64,000 nucleotides of DNA. Origin: Blautia sp. An81 (lineage in GTDB: Bacteria; Bacillota; Clostridia; Lachnospirales; Lachnospiraceae). A program made the position numbers and the translations under genes. Numbering within the stretch: position 1 is the first letter of the stretch; the number at the start of each line of letters is the position of its first letter. The notes beneath the pieces are model-generated. The model was not told the DNA's origin and did not search any database. It saw only the letters and a program-made list of their open reading frames with translations. Below are positions 40,190 through 46,894 of the stretch, piece by piece. Location: NCBI RefSeq assembly GCF_002161285.1, contig NZ_NFHH01000014.1:1-64000 (forward strand), given 5' to 3'.

Positions 40190-41845
40190 CTATTCCGGCA
40201 GTGTAAGGATAAACTTGCTGCCTTCTCCCAGGGTACTCTCTACTTTTATATCTGCTCCCAGGAACATTGCACCATGTTTTACAATGGAAAGTCCCAGTCC
40301 AGTTCCGCCGATAGCTTTGGAATGGCTCTTATCTACCCGGTAGAATCTTTCGAAGATTCGTTTCTGATCTTCCTCGGAAACTCCGATTCCCGTATCTTCC
40401 ACAGTAATCACAGGACGCTCTCCATCCTGAGATATGGTTACGGTGAGGCTTCCACCTTTCTTATTATATTTGATTCCATTATCGCAGAGATTATAAATAA
40501 TCTCATCCAGTATCGTTTTTACCGTATCTGCCTTAATATGCGGGCCATAGAGATAGCAGTGGACGCCTTCTGCCTTAGCATGGTCTTCCATCCGCACAAA
40601 AATCTCTCTTACCATTTCGTACAAGTCCACACTCTCTTTTTCATAAGGAAGTTTTCCCTCGTCCAGCTGAGAAATCTTGATCACATCATTGACCAGAACG
40701 ATCAACCGCTGAGCTTCTTTAAAGATACGTCCCGCAAACTTTTTCGTATCTTCTGGTTTTACAAAACCGTCGCTTATAATCTCAGCAAAACCTGAGATTG
40801 AAGTAAGAGGGGTCTTCAGCTCATGGGATACATTTGCTGTAAACTCCCTGCGCATCTGCTCCCCTTTCATCTTTTCTGTCACATCCAGAATCAAAATCAC
40901 TGCCCCGGTGACTTTTTCATCCTGGAACACGGGATTGGCAGCTACCTGGCAGGTGATGCCCTGGAATTCCTGATAGGATATCACATGCTGTCCACTCAGT
41001 ACCTTTTCCACTGTCTTCTGAAAATTTTCGCTTCTATTCAGTGCCAATACACTCTGTCTGGCATCCTTGTCTTTAGCTCCCAGAAGCCTCAATGCACTAG
41101 AATTATAAGACAGAACTTCTGTGTGAGAATCTATGACCAGAAATCCCTCTTCCATGTTGTCGGTGATCATGGAAAATTCTTCCTGCTGACGCTTTGCCTC
41201 AGTAATCTCTGCCTGAAGGGATTTCTGCTGCCGATTAATCCTTGAAAGGAGAGGGGCCACCTCTTCATAAGTCTGGTTCTCCTCCGGATGGTCCAGATCC
41301 AGCCCATTTAACGGATTTACGATCTGTTTTGCCAGTCTGGACGCCAGCACTCCTGCCAGAACCAATGCAAGGATCAGAATGATCAACAGGGGCTGGATCA
41401 TACCCCCTAAAAGTCCAGTCAGGTTATACTGCACACTGGAAACTCGAAGCACTGTGCCGTCACTGAGACGTACAGCATAGTACAGGGTCCTGCGGGAAAG
41501 GGTGTCCGATTCCCTTACTGCCATTCCGCTTCCCTCTTCCATAGCTTCCTGGATTTCTTCTCTGTCCATATGGTTTTCCATATCTGCTGCATCTGAACGA
41601 TTATCAAAAAGTACAGTGCCGTCTGTGTCAATGTAGGTGATCCTCTCTGCCTCTGAAGGAATAGAGTCAAAAGCGTTCATGCCCTCGTCCTCTACAGCAA
41701 TAGAAAGGAACTCCGCCTCTGTGCGGAGTTCCTCCTCCAGCTGATTTCCAAAATGGTTATACAGTACACCTATGGTCAGCCCTCCGCTGGCCAGAAGCAC
41801 GATCACAGACGCCAGGATTATAGATTTAAAAATCCTTTTTGTCAT
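40190..41845 (-). CDS. phoR: PhoR-like membrane histidine kinase
   Basis: A 551-residue kinase of the phosphate-response pair. One N-terminal membrane helix (about 8-28), an extracytoplasmic domain of about 120 residues, a second helix (about 150-172), a PAS domain (EEGFLVIDSHTEVLSYNSSAL), HisKA with NVSHELKTPLTS (His near 338) and HATPase_c with NGIKYN, DTGIGVSEEDQKRIF and GGTGLGLSIVKHG. Its start overlaps the phoP stop (ATGA). Autophosphorylates under phosphate limitation and passes phosphate to PhoP. Confidence 0.93.
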   Translation of the reverse strand: MTKRIFKSIILASVIVLLASGGLTIGVLYNHFGNQLEEELRTEAEFLSIAVEDEGMNAFDSIPSEAERITYIDTDGTVLFDNRSDAADMENHMDREEIQEAMEEGSGMAVRESDTLSRRTLYYAVRLSDGTVLRVSSVQYNLTGLLGGMIQPLLIILILALVLAGVLASRLAKQIVNPLNGLDLDHPEENQTYEEVAPLLSRINRQQKSLQAEITEAKRQQEEFSMITDNMEEGFLVIDSHTEVLSYNSSALRLLGAKDKDARQSVLALNRSENFQKTVEKVLSGQHVISYQEFQGITCQVAANPVFQDEKVTGAVILILDVTEKMKGEQMRREFTANVSHELKTPLTSISGFAEIISDGFVKPEDTKKFAGRIFKEAQRLIVLVNDVIKISQLDEGKLPYEKESVDLYEMVREIFVRMEDHAKAEGVHCYLYGPHIKADTVKTILDEIIYNLCDNGIKYNKKGGSLTVTISQDGERPVITVEDTGIGVSEEDQKRIFERFYRVDKSHSKAIGGTGLGLSIVKHGAMFLGADIKVESTLGEGSKFILTLPE

Positions 41846-42519
41846 GAAGGTCCTCCTATCTTATAGCCCATACCTCTTACTGTCTCAATATAGTGTCCCG
41901 CCTCTCCCAGCTTCTGCCGGAGAGTACGGATATGCACATCCACGGTTCTGCTTTCACCGTCAAACTGATATCCCCATATTTTATCCAGGAGCTGTGCTCT
42001 GGTAAATACTATACCAGGATTAGAAAGCAGCAAAAGCAAAAGCTCAAATTCCTTTAAAGTAAGGACAACCTCCCGGTCTCCTACTTTTACCTGATGTTTT
42101 TTCTGAGACACGTACAGACCGTCTATAGTGTATTCTTTATCTGTCTGCCCTGTCTTACCGCTTCTTCTGAGAAGAGCTTTGATCCTGGAGACCAGTTCCA
42201 TCATACGGAAAGGCTTAGGTATATAGTCATCTGCACCGCTGTCCAACCCTTTTACCGTATCATATTCGCTGCCCTTTGCAGTCAGCATGGCAATGGGAAG
42301 ATTTTTCGTATCTCCTCTTTTTCTCAGTTTCGCCAGAATATCCAGTCCGTCTTCCTCTGGAAGCATAATGTCCAGAAGGATCAGATCCGGCACTTTATTG
42401 TCTAAAGCTTTCCAGAAGTCGGAGGGTGTTCCGAAACCTTCTGCCTCCATACCCTGACTGTTCAGGGTATAGACTACCAGTTCCCGGATGCTCTCATCAT
42501 CTTCTACTAAATAAATCAT
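41842..42519 (-). CDS. phoP: PhoP/PhoB-like response regulator
   Basis: A 225-residue OmpR-type regulator: receiver (acidic pocket VEDDES, phospho-acceptor Asp50 in LILLDIMLPEEDG, Lys in PKPFRMMELV) and a winged-helix DNA-binding domain (LTLKEFELLLLL, RTVDVHIRTLRQKLG). The ATG at 42519 follows GGAGTAGAGGATAC; an ATG at 42549 is inside the phoU end. It probably binds the repeat array before pstS. Confidence 0.95.
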   Translation of the reverse strand: MIYLVEDDESIRELVVYTLNSQGMEAEGFGTPSDFWKALDNKVPDLILLDIMLPEEDGLDILAKLRKRGDTKNLPIAMLTAKGSEYDTVKGLDSGADDYIPKPFRMMELVSRIKALLRRSGKTGQTDKEYTIDGLYVSQKKHQVKVGDREVVLTLKEFELLLLLLSNPGIVFTRAQLLDKIWGYQFDGESRTVDVHIRTLRQKLGEAGHYIETVRGMGYKIGGPS

Positions 42520-42526
42520 GTATCCT

Positions 42527-43183
42527 CTACTCCTGTCCAAGAGCCTCATGTACCCCTGTTATGGAATATTCCACCCACTGGGCAATATTCTCTGCATGGT
42601 CACCGATACGCTCTAAATATTTTGCGATCATAATCAGGTCAATATAGTATTCAGCGTTCTTAGCATCCTTCTGCATAAGTTCAGGAAGTTCTCCTTTTAC
42701 TTTAAGGAACAGATTATCTACAATATCGTCAGATTTCACTACTTCTTTGGCAGCCTCTAAATCTCTCTTTACAAAAGAATCTATACTTCCGGTTACCATC
42801 TTGATAGCAGCTTCTGCCATCTCCCCGATATGAATCTTATGAGCGATCTCCTGTACTTTCACAAACTCTGCCATATTCGCGATATCCTGGGCCTGGTCTC
42901 CGATTCTTTCCATATCTGAGATCATCTTTAAAGCAGAAGAAATATTCCGCAGATCTGTTGCCACTGGCTGCTGCTGAAGGAGAAGGCGCATACAGAGAGT
43001 TTCAATATCTCTCTCCTTCTGATTGATCTCTTCTTCTATAATATCCACATCTTTAATGCTGGCATTTGTATTCTCTTCCATAAGAAGATCTACCGCTTTG
43101 CGGATCCCTCTCTCACAGAGAGAACCCATCTTAATCAGTTCCAGATTTAATTCTTCAAGCTGCTGGTCGAATCTTGGTCTCAT
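42527..43183 (-). CDS. phoU: Phosphate uptake regulator PhoU
   Basis: A 218-residue protein of two similar three-helix bundles, each with the E..D..D metal-binding pattern: KDVDIIEEEINQKERDIE with ISDMERIGDQAQDIA, and SDDIVDNLF with AKYLERIGDHAENIA. It restrains PhoR and Pst activity when phosphate is plentiful. Its ATG overlaps the pstB stop by one base. Confidence 0.97.
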   Translation of the reverse strand: MRPRFDQQLEELNLELIKMGSLCERGIRKAVDLLMEENTNASIKDVDIIEEEINQKERDIETLCMRLLLQQQPVATDLRNISSALKMISDMERIGDQAQDIANMAEFVKVQEIAHKIHIGEMAEAAIKMVTGSIDSFVKRDLEAAKEVVKSDDIVDNLFLKVKGELPELMQKDAKNAEYYIDLIMIAKYLERIGDHAENIAQWVEYSITGVHEALGQE

Positions 43184-43944
43184 CAGCCAAACCTCCCTGT
43201 AATATATTCCTCAGTTTTCTTATTCTTCGGCATAGAGAAGATCTGCTCAGTCTCACCGTATTCAATAACTTCTCCAAGAAGGAAGAATGCGGTCTTGTCA
43301 GAAATTCTGGCTGCCTGCTGCATATTATGAGTAACCATGACAATAGTATAATTCTTCTTTAACTCTACTGCAAGTTCCTCGATCTTAGAAGTAGAAATCG
43401 GGTCAAGAGCGGAAGTAGGCTCGTCCATAAGAAGGACTTCCGGTTCTACGGCCAGAGCTCTGGCGATGCAGAGACGCTGCTGCTGTCCGCCGGACATTCC
43501 CAGAGCACTTAATTTCAGTCTGTCTTTTACTTCATCCCAGATGGCTGCGCCTCTTAAAGAACGCTCTACGATATCATCCAGTTTTACTTTAGAACGGATG
43601 CCGTGGGTTCTGGGTCCGTAAGCAATGTTGTCATAAATGCTCATTGGGAAAGGATTAGGCTTCTGGAATACCATACCTACTCTTTTTCTCAGAAGGTTTA
43701 CATTCATATTACCATAAATATCCTCTCCGTCCAGAAGAATCTGTCCGGTGATCTTGCATCCCTCTACCAGGTCGTTCATACGGTTCAGGGATTTCAGCAG
43801 TGTGGATTTACCACATCCGGAAGGACCGATAAATGCAGTAATCTCGTTAGGCTGAATCTCCAGGTTAATATTTTTTAAGGCCTTAAAGGCTCCGTTATCA
43901 TAATAAAGATCCAAGTTGGAAATCGAAAATTTACTCTTGCTCAT
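43183..43944 (-). CDS. pstB: Phosphate ABC transporter ATPase PstB
   Basis: A 253-residue ABC ATPase: Walker [18 protein letters not shown], signature [17 protein letters not shown], Walker [17 protein letters not shown], and the PstB-specific [20 protein letters not shown]. It energises phosphate import through PstC-PstA. Confidence 0.98.
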
Positions 43945-43953
43945 GTTTCTTAA

Positions 43954-44832
43954 TTATCCTTTCTCTATCATTTTGGCCACTCTTCCGGATACCCAGTTGA
44001 TAAAGAGTACCACTATCAGAAGGACTACTGCTGTGGCATAGGCTGCATCAATATGAAGACCTTCACTTGCCAGGGTATACATGTGCACGGAAAGTGTTCT
44101 TGTAGAAGACATAACGCTCTTAGGCATTTCCGCAACGGTACCTGCCGTATACATAAGGGCTGCAGTCTCGCCCACGATACGTCCGATAGCCAGGATAACA
44201 CCGGAAAGGATTCCCGGTACAGCGGAAGGAAGGATCACTACGAAAATAGTTCTAAGTCTTCCGGCTCCCAGTCCAAAACTGGCTTCCCGATACATATCCG
44301 GTACTGCCAGCAGAGCTTCCTCTGTGGTCCTCATGATAACCGGAAGGACCATGATCGCCAGGGTAAAGGCGCCTGCCAACATAGAATAGCCCCACTTCAA
44401 TGCAGTTACAAAGAACAGCATACCGAAAAGTCCATATACGATAGAAGGAATACCTGTCAGGGTTTCAGCAGTCACACGGACAACGCTTACCAGTTTGTTG
44501 CCCTTTTTCGCATACTCTACCAGGTATACAGCTGCCAGGATTCCCAGAGGTCCTGCGATCACCAGAGACAGCAGGGTCATACCAACGGTATTGATAATCG
44601 AAGGCAGCATAGAAACATTGTCTGAATTATACTCCAGCTGGAATAAGCTGGGTTTCAGGTTCGGGATTCCCATAACCAGAATATATCCGATAATAAATAC
44701 TAAAGTCAAGAAAGTGATCAGTGCAGCAAGTCCCACCAGCACGGCAAGGATCAGAGAGCCGGGATTGCTGGAATAAGATTTGATACGCTGCTTTGTAGTC
44801 TGCACATTAATTGGTCTTATTGCCTCATCCAT
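43954..44832 (-). CDS. pstA: Phosphate ABC transporter permease PstA
   Basis: A 292-residue permease with about six helices and the BPD_transp_1 EAA loop (REASFGLGAGRLRTIFVVILPSAVPGI). The conserved Arg/Glu-type text GIPSIVYGLFGMLFF is shared with PstC. Its start overlaps the pstC stop by 8 bases. Confidence 0.96.
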   Translation of the reverse strand: MDEAIRPINVQTTKQRIKSYSSNPGSLILAVLVGLAALITFLTLVFIIGYILVMGIPNLKPSLFQLEYNSDNVSMLPSIINTVGMTLLSLVIAGPLGILAAVYLVEYAKKGNKLVSVVRVTAETLTGIPSIVYGLFGMLFFVTALKWGYSMLAGAFTLAIMVLPVIMRTTEEALLAVPDMYREASFGLGAGRLRTIFVVILPSAVPGILSGVILAIGRIVGETAALMYTAGTVAEMPKSVMSSTRTLSVHMYTLASEGLHIDAAYATAVVLLIVVLFINWVSGRVAKMIEKG

Positions 44833-45697
44833 TTGCGCTCCTCCTCTTCACCAGTGAGAATAACAGGTTAATGATCAGAATAAATACAAAGAGTACAACC
44901 GCTGTAGCGATCAGGGCCTCTCTGTGAAGGTCTGTGGCATATCCCATCTCCATAACGATATTAGAAGTCAGGGTACGGACGCCTTCAAAAATTCCCTTTG
45001 GCATACGTGGCTGGTTTCCGGCGATCATGATAACTGCCATGGTCTCGCCGATAGCTCTTCCGATTCCCAGAATGATCCCGGCCATGATACCTGATTTTGC
45101 TGCAGGTACGATGGTGCAGAACACACTTCTCTCATGGGTGGCCCCCAGAGCCAGAGAACCTTCATAATAGCTGTCTGGCACCGCACGGATAGAAGATTCG
45201 CCCACGCTGATGATAGTAGGAAGGATCATGATCCCCAGCATTACGGAAGCTGTAAACATGCTGGATCCGTTTCCTCCGAATCCCAGAGTCTGTCCGAAGA
45301 AATTCCGGACAAAAGGTACCAGCACCACCATACCAAAGAAACCATATACAACTGAAGGAATACCTGCCAGCAGGTCAACTGCAGGCTTCATAAATCTGTA
45401 AATAGATTTTGGACAGAATCTTGCCATAAAAATAGCCGTCAGAAGTCCGATAGGAACACCGATGACGATGGCTCCTGCCGTTACATAAATACTTCCCAGA
45501 ATAAAGGGAAGGATTCCATACAGATCATTTCCCGGTTTCCATGTCTCCCCCAGCAGAAAATTAAAAACTCCTATTTTGCCAATGGCAGGTACGCCATTGG
45601 CAAATAGGAATGCACAAATCAAAATTACTGCCAGGATGGAAGCGCATGCACATACCAGAAACACATATTTCATAACTGTTTCTTTAACGTCTTTCAT
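44825..45697 (-). CDS. pstC: Phosphate ABC transporter permease PstC
   Basis: A 290-residue permease with six helices, LLAGIPSVVYGFFGMVVLVPFVR and the EAA loop EGSLALGATHERSVFCTIVPAAKSGI. It pairs with PstA to form the phosphate channel. It follows pstS by 37 bases. Confidence 0.96.
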   Translation of the reverse strand: MKDVKETVMKYVFLVCACASILAVILICAFLFANGVPAIGKIGVFNFLLGETWKPGNDLYGILPFILGSIYVTAGAIVIGVPIGLLTAIFMARFCPKSIYRFMKPAVDLLAGIPSVVYGFFGMVVLVPFVRNFFGQTLGFGGNGSSMFTASVMLGIMILPTIISVGESSIRAVPDSYYEGSLALGATHERSVFCTIVPAAKSGIMAGIILGIGRAIGETMAVIMIAGNQPRMPKGIFEGVRTLTSNIVMEMGYATDLHREALIATAVVLFVFILIINLLFSLVKRRSANG

Positions 45698-45734: not shown

Positions 45735-46679
45735 TTACTGAAGATCTTCCCAGTTTGTAACCTCACCCGTATAAATCTGTTTTACCTGGTCAGATGTAAT
45801 ATCTGTCATGCTGTTTTCATTGTTTACGATAATTGCGATACCGTCAATAGCGATCTGAGTTCCTGTAACGCCTTCAGATGTCTCTGTATCTTTCAGTTCT
45901 CTGGAAGCCATACCGATATCACAGATACCGCTGATAGTAGATTCTACACCAGTTGTAGAATCGCTTGTCTGGATCTCGATAGAAGCGTTTGGATTTACAG
46001 CTTCATATCCTTCTTTCAGTTTTTCCATTACAGGAGATACAGAAGAGGATCCTGCAACTACTACGCTGCCTTCCGGTGATGTTCCTGCATAAGCTTCTGC
46101 CGCATCATCTACAGGAATATAATCTTCTCCTACAATAGCCTGTCCGTCAGAGCTGAGGATATAATCAACAAAATCCTGAGCCACATCGCTGAGACTGTCA
46201 CCTGTTACAATATTGAAAGGACGGGATACTTTGTATGTACCGTTCTTTACATTCTCAGCAGATGCTTCAGCTCCATCTACTTTCAGAGCTTTTACGCTGT
46301 CATCTAAGGAACCAAGGGAAATATAGCCGATAGCCTGAGGATCCTGAGCAACGCCTGTCATCATAACGGCGGTGCTGTTTGTTACCTGGGCGTCTACGGT
46401 AGTGTTATCTACTTTTTCCCCATCAGCATTCTCTTCCTCTACACCGAACAGTTCTACAAAAGCTCCTCTTGTACCGGAACCTTCCTCACGGGAAAGTACG
46501 GAAATTGTTCCGCTTGGTGCGGAAGCATCTGAACTGCTGCTGTCTGAGCTGCTGTCGGAAGATGCGCTGTCTTCTGTTGCTGTGCTGTCGGAACTGCTGC
46601 CTGAATCGTTTGAACCGCAGGCTGCCATGCTGAATACCATTGCTCCCATTAATACTGCTGCTAATACTTTCTTCTTCAT
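45735..46679 (-). CDS. pstS: Phosphate-binding lipoprotein PstS, apparently circularly permuted
   Basis: A 314-residue lipoprotein: lipobox SMAACGS (Cys21), a Ser/Asp-rich linker (22-56), then the binding domain. In ordinary PstS the order is GSSSVSP-type loop, MASREL, YTGEVTNW, then SREEGSGTR, then AIGYISLG. Here the order is SREEGSGTRGAF (63-74), AIGYISLG (116-123), and only then GSSSVSP (210-216), DIGMASREL (254-262) and YTGEVTNW (303-310) at the extreme C-terminus. All phosphate-binding segments are present, so the protein should still bind. It delivers phosphate to PstC-PstA outside the membrane. GGAGCGAGTATAATA precedes the ATG. Confidence 0.93.
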   Translation of the reverse strand: MKKKVLAAVLMGAMVFSMAACGSNDSGSSSDSTATEDSASSDSSSDSSSSDASAPSGTISVLSREEGSGTRGAFVELFGVEEENADGEKVDNTTVDAQVTNSTAVMMTGVAQDPQAIGYISLGSLDDSVKALKVDGAEASAENVKNGTYKVSRPFNIVTGDSLSDVAQDFVDYILSSDGQAIVGEDYIPVDDAAEAYAGTSPEGSVVVAGSSSVSPVMEKLKEGYEAVNPNASIEIQTSDSTTGVESTISGICDIGMASRELKDTETSEGVTGTQIAIDGIAIIVNNENSMTDITSDQVKQIYTGEVTNWEDLQ

Positions 46680-46786
46680 TATTATACTCGCTCCTTGTGT
46701 TTGCTTTTTGCTTTCTTGATTTATTTTTGACAGGATTAAATATAAAGAAGTTTTGTAAAATCACCAATCTTCTTTCTGTTAAATGT

Positions 46787-46850
46787 ATGTAAAATCCATA
46801 TTTTACATTTCACATTAGGGATTTTACATTCCTCATCACAAACTTAACAT
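46787..46850. promoter_or_regulatory. Pho-box-like repeat array upstream of pstS
   Basis: TTTACAT at 46802 and 46823 and TTAACAT at 46844 recur at exactly 21-base steps (two helical turns), and a perfect 9-base inverted repeat, ATGTAAAAT CCAT ATTTTACAT (46787-46808), overlaps the first. TT(A/T)ACA repeats are the Bacillus-type PhoP target; here the spacing is wider. A TATATT-like -10 lies nearer the gene (about 46737-46742, minus strand). Confidence 0.6.
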
Positions 46851-46894
46851 TTCCCGTTCTTTCCTAAATTATGTACTATTTAGAGTATCAGCAT

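Follow-up and report, generated by a model that had tools for sequence, protein, structure and literature searches.

It is clear that the PstS encoded in the window, by which is meant the whole analysed stretch of 64,000 nucleotides from contig NZ_NFHH01000014.1 of Blautia sp. An81, is a true circular permutation of PstS. The open reading frame (ORF) lies at positions 45735-46679 on the minus strand and encodes 314 amino acids, in which the two halves of the family stand in exchanged order. The probability that this gene encodes a working, circularly permuted PstS lipoprotein, and that the rotation is clade-wide and was made again, or reversed, in one small family, is placed at about 0.93.

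The order of the conserved motifs is rotated, as an earlier sequence-only reading of this DNA had described: SREEGSGTRG (residues 63-72) and AIGYISLG (116-123) stand ahead of GSSSVSP (210-216), DIGMASREL (254-262) and YTGEVTNWEDL (303-313). The parts of the gene are the following, with the basis of each assignment.

46617..46679, minus strand: signal peptide and lipobox SMAAC (residues 17-21), residues 1-21; translation and established lipoprotein signals
46515..46616, minus strand: Ser/Asp-rich tether, residues 22-55; translation
46110..46514, minus strand: classical second half in first place, residues 56-190; hmmscan, phmmer and rotation test
46068..46109, minus strand: linker between the old C- and N-termini, residues 191-204, DDAAEAYAGTSPEG; translation and predicted model
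45738..46067, minus strand: classical first half in last place, residues 205-314; hmmscan, phmmer and rotation test

Following type II topology, residues 56-190 presumably comprise the end of lobe 2 (SREEGSGTRG, AIGYISLG) and the closing part of lobe 1, and residues 205-314 are taken to comprise lobe 1 (GSSSVSP, DIGMASREL), the crossover strand and the start of lobe 2 (YTGEVTNWEDL). The linker has neither helix nor strand in the predicted model (model residues 137-150, which are residues 190-203 of the protein).

Profile searches match the protein in pieces. TIGR02136 is matched in two stretches (188.2 bits, E 1.8e-55), with residues 193-313 falling on profile positions 28-155, and Pfam PF12849 also in two, the better of which places residues 198-312 in the N-terminal half of the profile (positions 4-125). 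Both halves are therefore homologous to the PstS family, and their order is not the classical one of first half followed by second half, for which reason the protein is a permuted variant and not a classical member. In natural order, phmmer matches the classical structures 4q8r, 4gd5 and 1twy each in two stretches (176.6 bits for 4q8r) and 4h1x in one (206.2 bits). After rotation in silico, a single stretch matches 4q8r (191 bits; query residues 8-251, chain residues 4-242), and the match to 4h1x is divided in two (193 bits). A single end-to-end alignment with classical PstS is obtained only after rotation, which is the mark of a natural circular permutation. The likeness to PstS is not due to chance, given that the PstS core matches TIGR02136 with E 6.3e-56 and that the same order is present in all 80 named loci, these being the 80 best matches, from genome contigs, to an alignment of permuted proteins and so permuted as expected from a permuted query.

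The predicted fold of the window PstS (predicted local distance difference test, pLDDT, 92.4) is the two-lobed type II binding-protein fold, and the model has one high-scoring whole-chain match in the PDB, by far the best: 4H1X, SP_2084 of Streptococcus pneumoniae ('phosphate-binding protein pstS 2'). It has the same rotated order and is colinear over window residues 53-313, with 42% identity and a template modelling (TM) score of 0.92, and SP_2084 is placed inside the permuted core clade of the tree described below. In contrast, classical PstS proteins of the TIGR02136 type (4q8r from Clostridium perfringens, 4gd5, and 1twy from Vibrio cholerae) share family and motifs with the window PstS but differ from it in natural order, and align structurally with the model by halves only. 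The sequence-only reading had named a predicted chain in the normal order as a result that would overturn it; what was obtained is the whole-chain match to the rotated 4h1x. Given that 4H1X has the same order, the rotated form was already present in the PDB, where the entry title, as printed, makes no mention of permutation.

Circular permutation has been studied mostly in engineered proteins, and the numbering of the pneumococcal PstS1 and PstS2 may differ between sources. In a partial search of the literature on circular permutation with PstS or binding proteins, which reached few subscription journals, no description of a permuted PstS was found, nor any paper with the entry code 4H1X. In the accessible text of PMC4913102, on the two pneumococcal Pst systems, and of PMC12096839, on the Enterococcus pst locus, a word search finds no 'permut', and the former does not contain the string SP_2084 either. 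The window PstS is an ordinary example of the permuted form, which is widespread and structurally solved but, within the literature searched, undescribed. The suggestion that it had not been remarked on agrees with this, but a solved structure of the same order became public in 2012. The most similar published case found, in the accessible text of PMC4990184, is Tp0684 (TpMglB-2) of Treponema pallidum, a circularly permuted type I glucose-binding protein for which its authors suggest the designation 'Type Ic' or 'Cluster Bc'. Like the window PstS, Tp0684 appears there as a natural circular permutation of a tethered binding protein of an ATP-binding cassette importer; it differs in being type I and sugar-binding, and in that its permutation adds a fourth hinge crossing, whereas the crossings of the window PstS would be unchanged.

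The chain of the window PstS ends in TNWEDLQ and restarts with SGTISVLSREEGSGT, while that of a second permuted protein, L257, ends in TEWSEFQ and restarts with GGELEEILVVSREAGSG, where its classical relative L256 reads TNWSDVGGNNAEIIVISREAGSG. From these ends, the two breaks are read as lying in the same turn. The new termini would have been opened in lobe 2, in the turn that separates TNWEDL from the strand entering the SREEGSGT loop, and the old lobe-1 termini would have been joined by a linker of roughly 14 residues. Both positions, and the lipobox and Ser-rich tether ahead of the new start, had been foreseen by the sequence-only reading, which put the linker near residues 190-205; the joint is found at about residues 191-204. 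Motif order, predicted secondary structure and type II topology together suggest a chain path of lobe 2b, lobe 1b, lobe 1a and lobe 2a. With this path the hinge would still be crossed twice, the continuous lobe would now be lobe 1 instead of lobe 2, and the membrane lipid tether would have moved to lobe 2. Phosphate would probably be bound between the lobes by the usual residues and handed to PstC-PstA.

The number of times that the order changed was evaluated with trees in which the permuted sequences were rotated. A first PstS tree of 102 rows, with 38 hand-picked permuted rows and every distinct classical row at hand, gave one permuted group with a support of 71, or 90 without L045. The PstC tree of 83 operons, from which 18 rows were omitted as having no usable PstC, showed the same permuted grouping (support 27) within a 42-row set (95) containing the same eight classical rows. 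Given that the PstC grouping is the same as that of PstS, the operon seems to have travelled as a unit. In a tree of 113 rows, to which L242 was added and from which 20 loci were omitted for brevity, this permuted sequence of genome G384 pairs with the classical L032, both from the GTDB family f16. With L256 added in turn, a tree of 58 rows, left of 115 after near-copies, long outgroups and some others had been removed by hand, and built on the halves concatenated in classical order, supports a permuted core clade and makes L242 and L256 sisters (100/99), with the classical L032 outside (100/98); this f16 group adjoins the permuted core (92/89). None of 200 bootstrap trees of this set, which includes L045 and L260, has a single order change. 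In an approximately unbiased (AU) test on 56 rows, with L260 and L045 dropped, forcing the permuted rows into one clade is worse by 105 log-likelihood units (p-AU 4.4e-8). The single origin seen in the first trees was thus overturned by the addition of L242 and then of L256, and with a single permuted clade rejected, the rotation has either two or more origins, or one origin and a reversal.

These trees also bear on whether the protein is a fusion of two half-domains from different proteins, whose likeness to a rotated PstS would be convergent. The placements of the two halves in half trees are not identical, and in L045 the best scores of the two halves lie with different groups: classical rows for the first half and permuted rows for the second. 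Nonetheless, both halves of the window PstS come from the same PstS family, the concatenated tree has a supported permuted core clade, and that clade is not rejected by an AU test restricted to the first half (p 0.663). The pair L257 and L256, in which both halves are swapped in place in one operon, largely refutes such a fusion, which is extremely improbable. Circular permutation is supported instead, because of the end-to-end match after rotation, the whole-chain match of the model to 4h1x and the supported core clade.

All seven genomes of f16 were searched and five loci were read. The permuted order is found in G384, in G374 (full-length and colinear with L242) and, in a very divergent form, in G622; the classical order in G404, G051 and G364; and G394 gave no match. 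Once rotated, L242 shares 158 identical residues with the classical PstS of G404 over 238 aligned positions (66%), and the identities of their operon partners are 75% (PstC), 80% (PstA), 75% (PstB) and 50% (PhoU, partial). The DNA of the two operons is colinear except for the exchanged pstS halves, and the signal-peptide regions ahead of pstS are weakly alike (19 codons, 53%). G384 and G404 would provide a young, in-place example within colinear operons. An assembly artefact, in G384 or in the whole set, might be suspected from the fact that G384 is a draft genome with this locus on a contig of 9.6 kb. However, the contig is free of N and carries an intact pstS ORF, complete with a signal peptide of its own and a linker in frame, followed by pstC, pstA, pstB and phoU, while for the set as a whole a crystal structure and two complete plasmid records have the same order as the 80 named loci, making an artefact hardly credible.

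Two independent permutations are the shortest account of these trees, given that a permutation followed by a reversal needs a further step. With the f16 group adjoining the permuted core, a permuted common ancestor is possible, and with it a single basal permutation in the clade and a later return to the classical order in f16. This is unlikely, since with L242 and L256 as sisters and L032 outside, a permuted ancestor needs at least three changes against two. Recurrence is fairly probable: PstS would be a natural permutation hot spot, with at least two independent origins of the same rotation in Clostridia, and perhaps as many as four if L045 and L260 are counted, which may be further independent permutations. 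The rotation is common to a large clade that includes SP_2084 of S. pneumoniae, with a second origin or a reversal in a small family of the same taxonomic order, where two near relatives have opposite orders. The independent rotations, in the large core clade and in the G384 lineage, would share the opening turn in lobe 2 and the joint between the old termini. This recurrence is what is new here, and the sequence-only reading missed that the order changed at least twice.

The likeliest route would be a tandem duplication of pstS, an in-frame fusion and the loss of the outer halves. Tandem pairs of classical and of permuted pstS both occur, and the ORFs of 195 loci, several of them overlapping, have the second half first in 120 cases, the first half first in 70 and the second half only in four. 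The long classical L191 and L176 were rejected as intermediates given that their N-terminal extensions are not PstS halves, and so was G407, whose match bridging residues 56-233 belongs to an ordinary classical pstS.

Several observations weigh against the reading given at the outset. No three-half or tandem intermediate was found among ORFs of at least 80 amino acids in the 195 loci, which leaves the route by duplication unproven. In the first trees, which lacked the classical member of the pair, the permuted rows lay weakly on one side of a branch (71; PstC 27). The group used in the AU test was chosen after sight of an earlier tree, half-by-half trees are poorly resolved and AU tests on the halves did not reject one clade, and the permuted L045 and L260 sit on long branches with uncertain placement. 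The permuted and classical pair comes from draft genomes (220 contigs for G384), with the permuted member backed by one genome. Finally, the curated TIGR02136 cut-off of 206.6 bits is not reached by the whole protein (188.2) or by its core (189.7 in natural order, 201.4 rotated). The one classical relative scanned, L256, is also below it (186.3 bits), and of the four proteins tried, which gain 10.6 to 12.5 bits on rotation, none reaches the cut-off. The order as the whole cause of the weak score is not supported, because the rotated window PstS still falls short.

What should interest specialists most is that one and the same rotation occurred repeatedly or was reversed. A common transport protein of many gut bacteria and of a human pathogen had its chain rotated by nature while the operon was kept. 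Near relatives with opposite orders offer a natural experiment in which folding, ligand affinity and docking can be compared, and the G384/G404 pair, if true, could measure the effect of permutation on a binding protein. There is also a warning for annotation, given that profile searches break permuted PstS into pieces and that it is entered in two plasmid records as 'substrate-binding domain-containing protein'.

The distribution of the permuted order was followed by full-length matches to the window PstS, and every such match that was fetched and scanned as a locus proved permuted. Among 61 genomes surveyed, the 20 of the window's genus have 16 full-length permuted forms, two fragments, two without a match and no classical form. 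The 17 from other genera of the family comprise two permuted, six classical and nine without a match, and the 24 from other families of the order four permuted, ten with half matches only and ten without a match. In a sample of 294 genomes of the order, each at least 90% complete, at least 90 carry permuted PstS, and in a phylum sample at least 10 of 299, the window's included; both counts are lower bounds, since divergent permuted forms may be uncounted. Among the matches listed, 201 of the 294 have any match and, of the 90, seven carry the permuted form in two or three copies. The suggested lineage trait thus holds for the window's order. The proposal of a similar order in related gut species also stood, but it missed the reach beyond Lachnospiraceae and Bacillota: the named permuted loci include Blautia, Dorea, Anaerotruncus, Thermoclostridium and a Phascolarctobacterium bin, and also the actinobacteria Gordonibacter, Adlercreutzia and Paraeggerthella. 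Bins labelled Bacteroides and Desulfovibrionaceae that carry permuted PstS may be misassigned. Permuted pst operons are present on plasmid pTS2 of Treponema saccharophilum (L215) and on plasmid 3 of Monoglobus (L216), in both of which a permuted pstS, annotated as above, is followed by pstC, pstA, pstB and phoU; plasmids are a possible vehicle for spread between phyla.

Some arrangements were observed in passing. Genome G090 has three pstS genes, each on its own contig (L178, L042 and L179), two of them permuted and one classical, and tandem pairs of permuted pstS genes occur in G604 and G521 (L244, L245). At L260 (533-2866, minus strand), PstC and PstA are fused in one ORF of 778 amino acids that exceeds the cut-offs of both TIGR02138 and TIGR00974; the PstS beside it is permuted and very divergent.

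In the window, pstS heads an otherwise normal pst-pho operon, as had been claimed, with the first four downstream genes above curated cut-offs.

44825..45697, minus strand: pstC; TIGR02138 307.2 bits, cut-off 196.45
43954..44832, minus strand: pstA; TIGR00974 269.9 bits, cut-off 193.45
43183..43944, minus strand: pstB; TIGR00972 417.9 bits, cut-off 343.2
42527..43183, minus strand: phoU; TIGR02135 196.4 bits, cut-off 130.25
41842..42549, minus strand: phoP/phoB-type response regulator; read from the ORF sequence
40190..41845, minus strand: phoR-type sensor kinase; read from the ORF sequence

The phosphate-loop motifs are invariant or nearly so in 21 aligned permuted cores, and we take their residues to be the ligands seen in E. 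coli PstS. The window PstS is most likely functional; its fold, motifs and operon indicate that it probably binds phosphate, and operon context and motifs make phosphate uptake by far its likeliest job. A departure from this role, for example as a sensor or as the binder of another anion, could be read into the bare annotation in the two plasmid records and the seven genomes with two or three permuted copies. It is nevertheless very unlikely, with an ordinary pst operon behind the gene, conserved phosphate-loop motifs and no other PstS found in the genome by a search with the window PstS, which a very distant PstS could escape. Six weaker matches in the same genome are all confined to residues within 1-96. 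PstC lies downstream of permuted PstS in 79 of the 80 named loci. The permuted pstS of L100 (Intestinimonas) has no pstC match downstream, and one of the 80 loci has no operon match at all.

The lipobox is absent in 11 of the 80 named permuted PstS proteins (L073, L074, L082, L084, L086, L087, L104, L105, L110, L130 and L144, five of them named Blautia), which have a signal peptide with an AxA-like end only. For this reason, the membrane tether is disfavoured as a general cause of permutation. A tether explanation was raised for TpMglB-2, according to the accessible text of PMC4990184, and permuted PstS offers a system on which it is open to testing. Upstream of pstS, at window positions 46780-46860, there are repeats like TGTAAAAT and TTTTACAT..TTTAACA, which presumably resemble Gram-positive Pho boxes.
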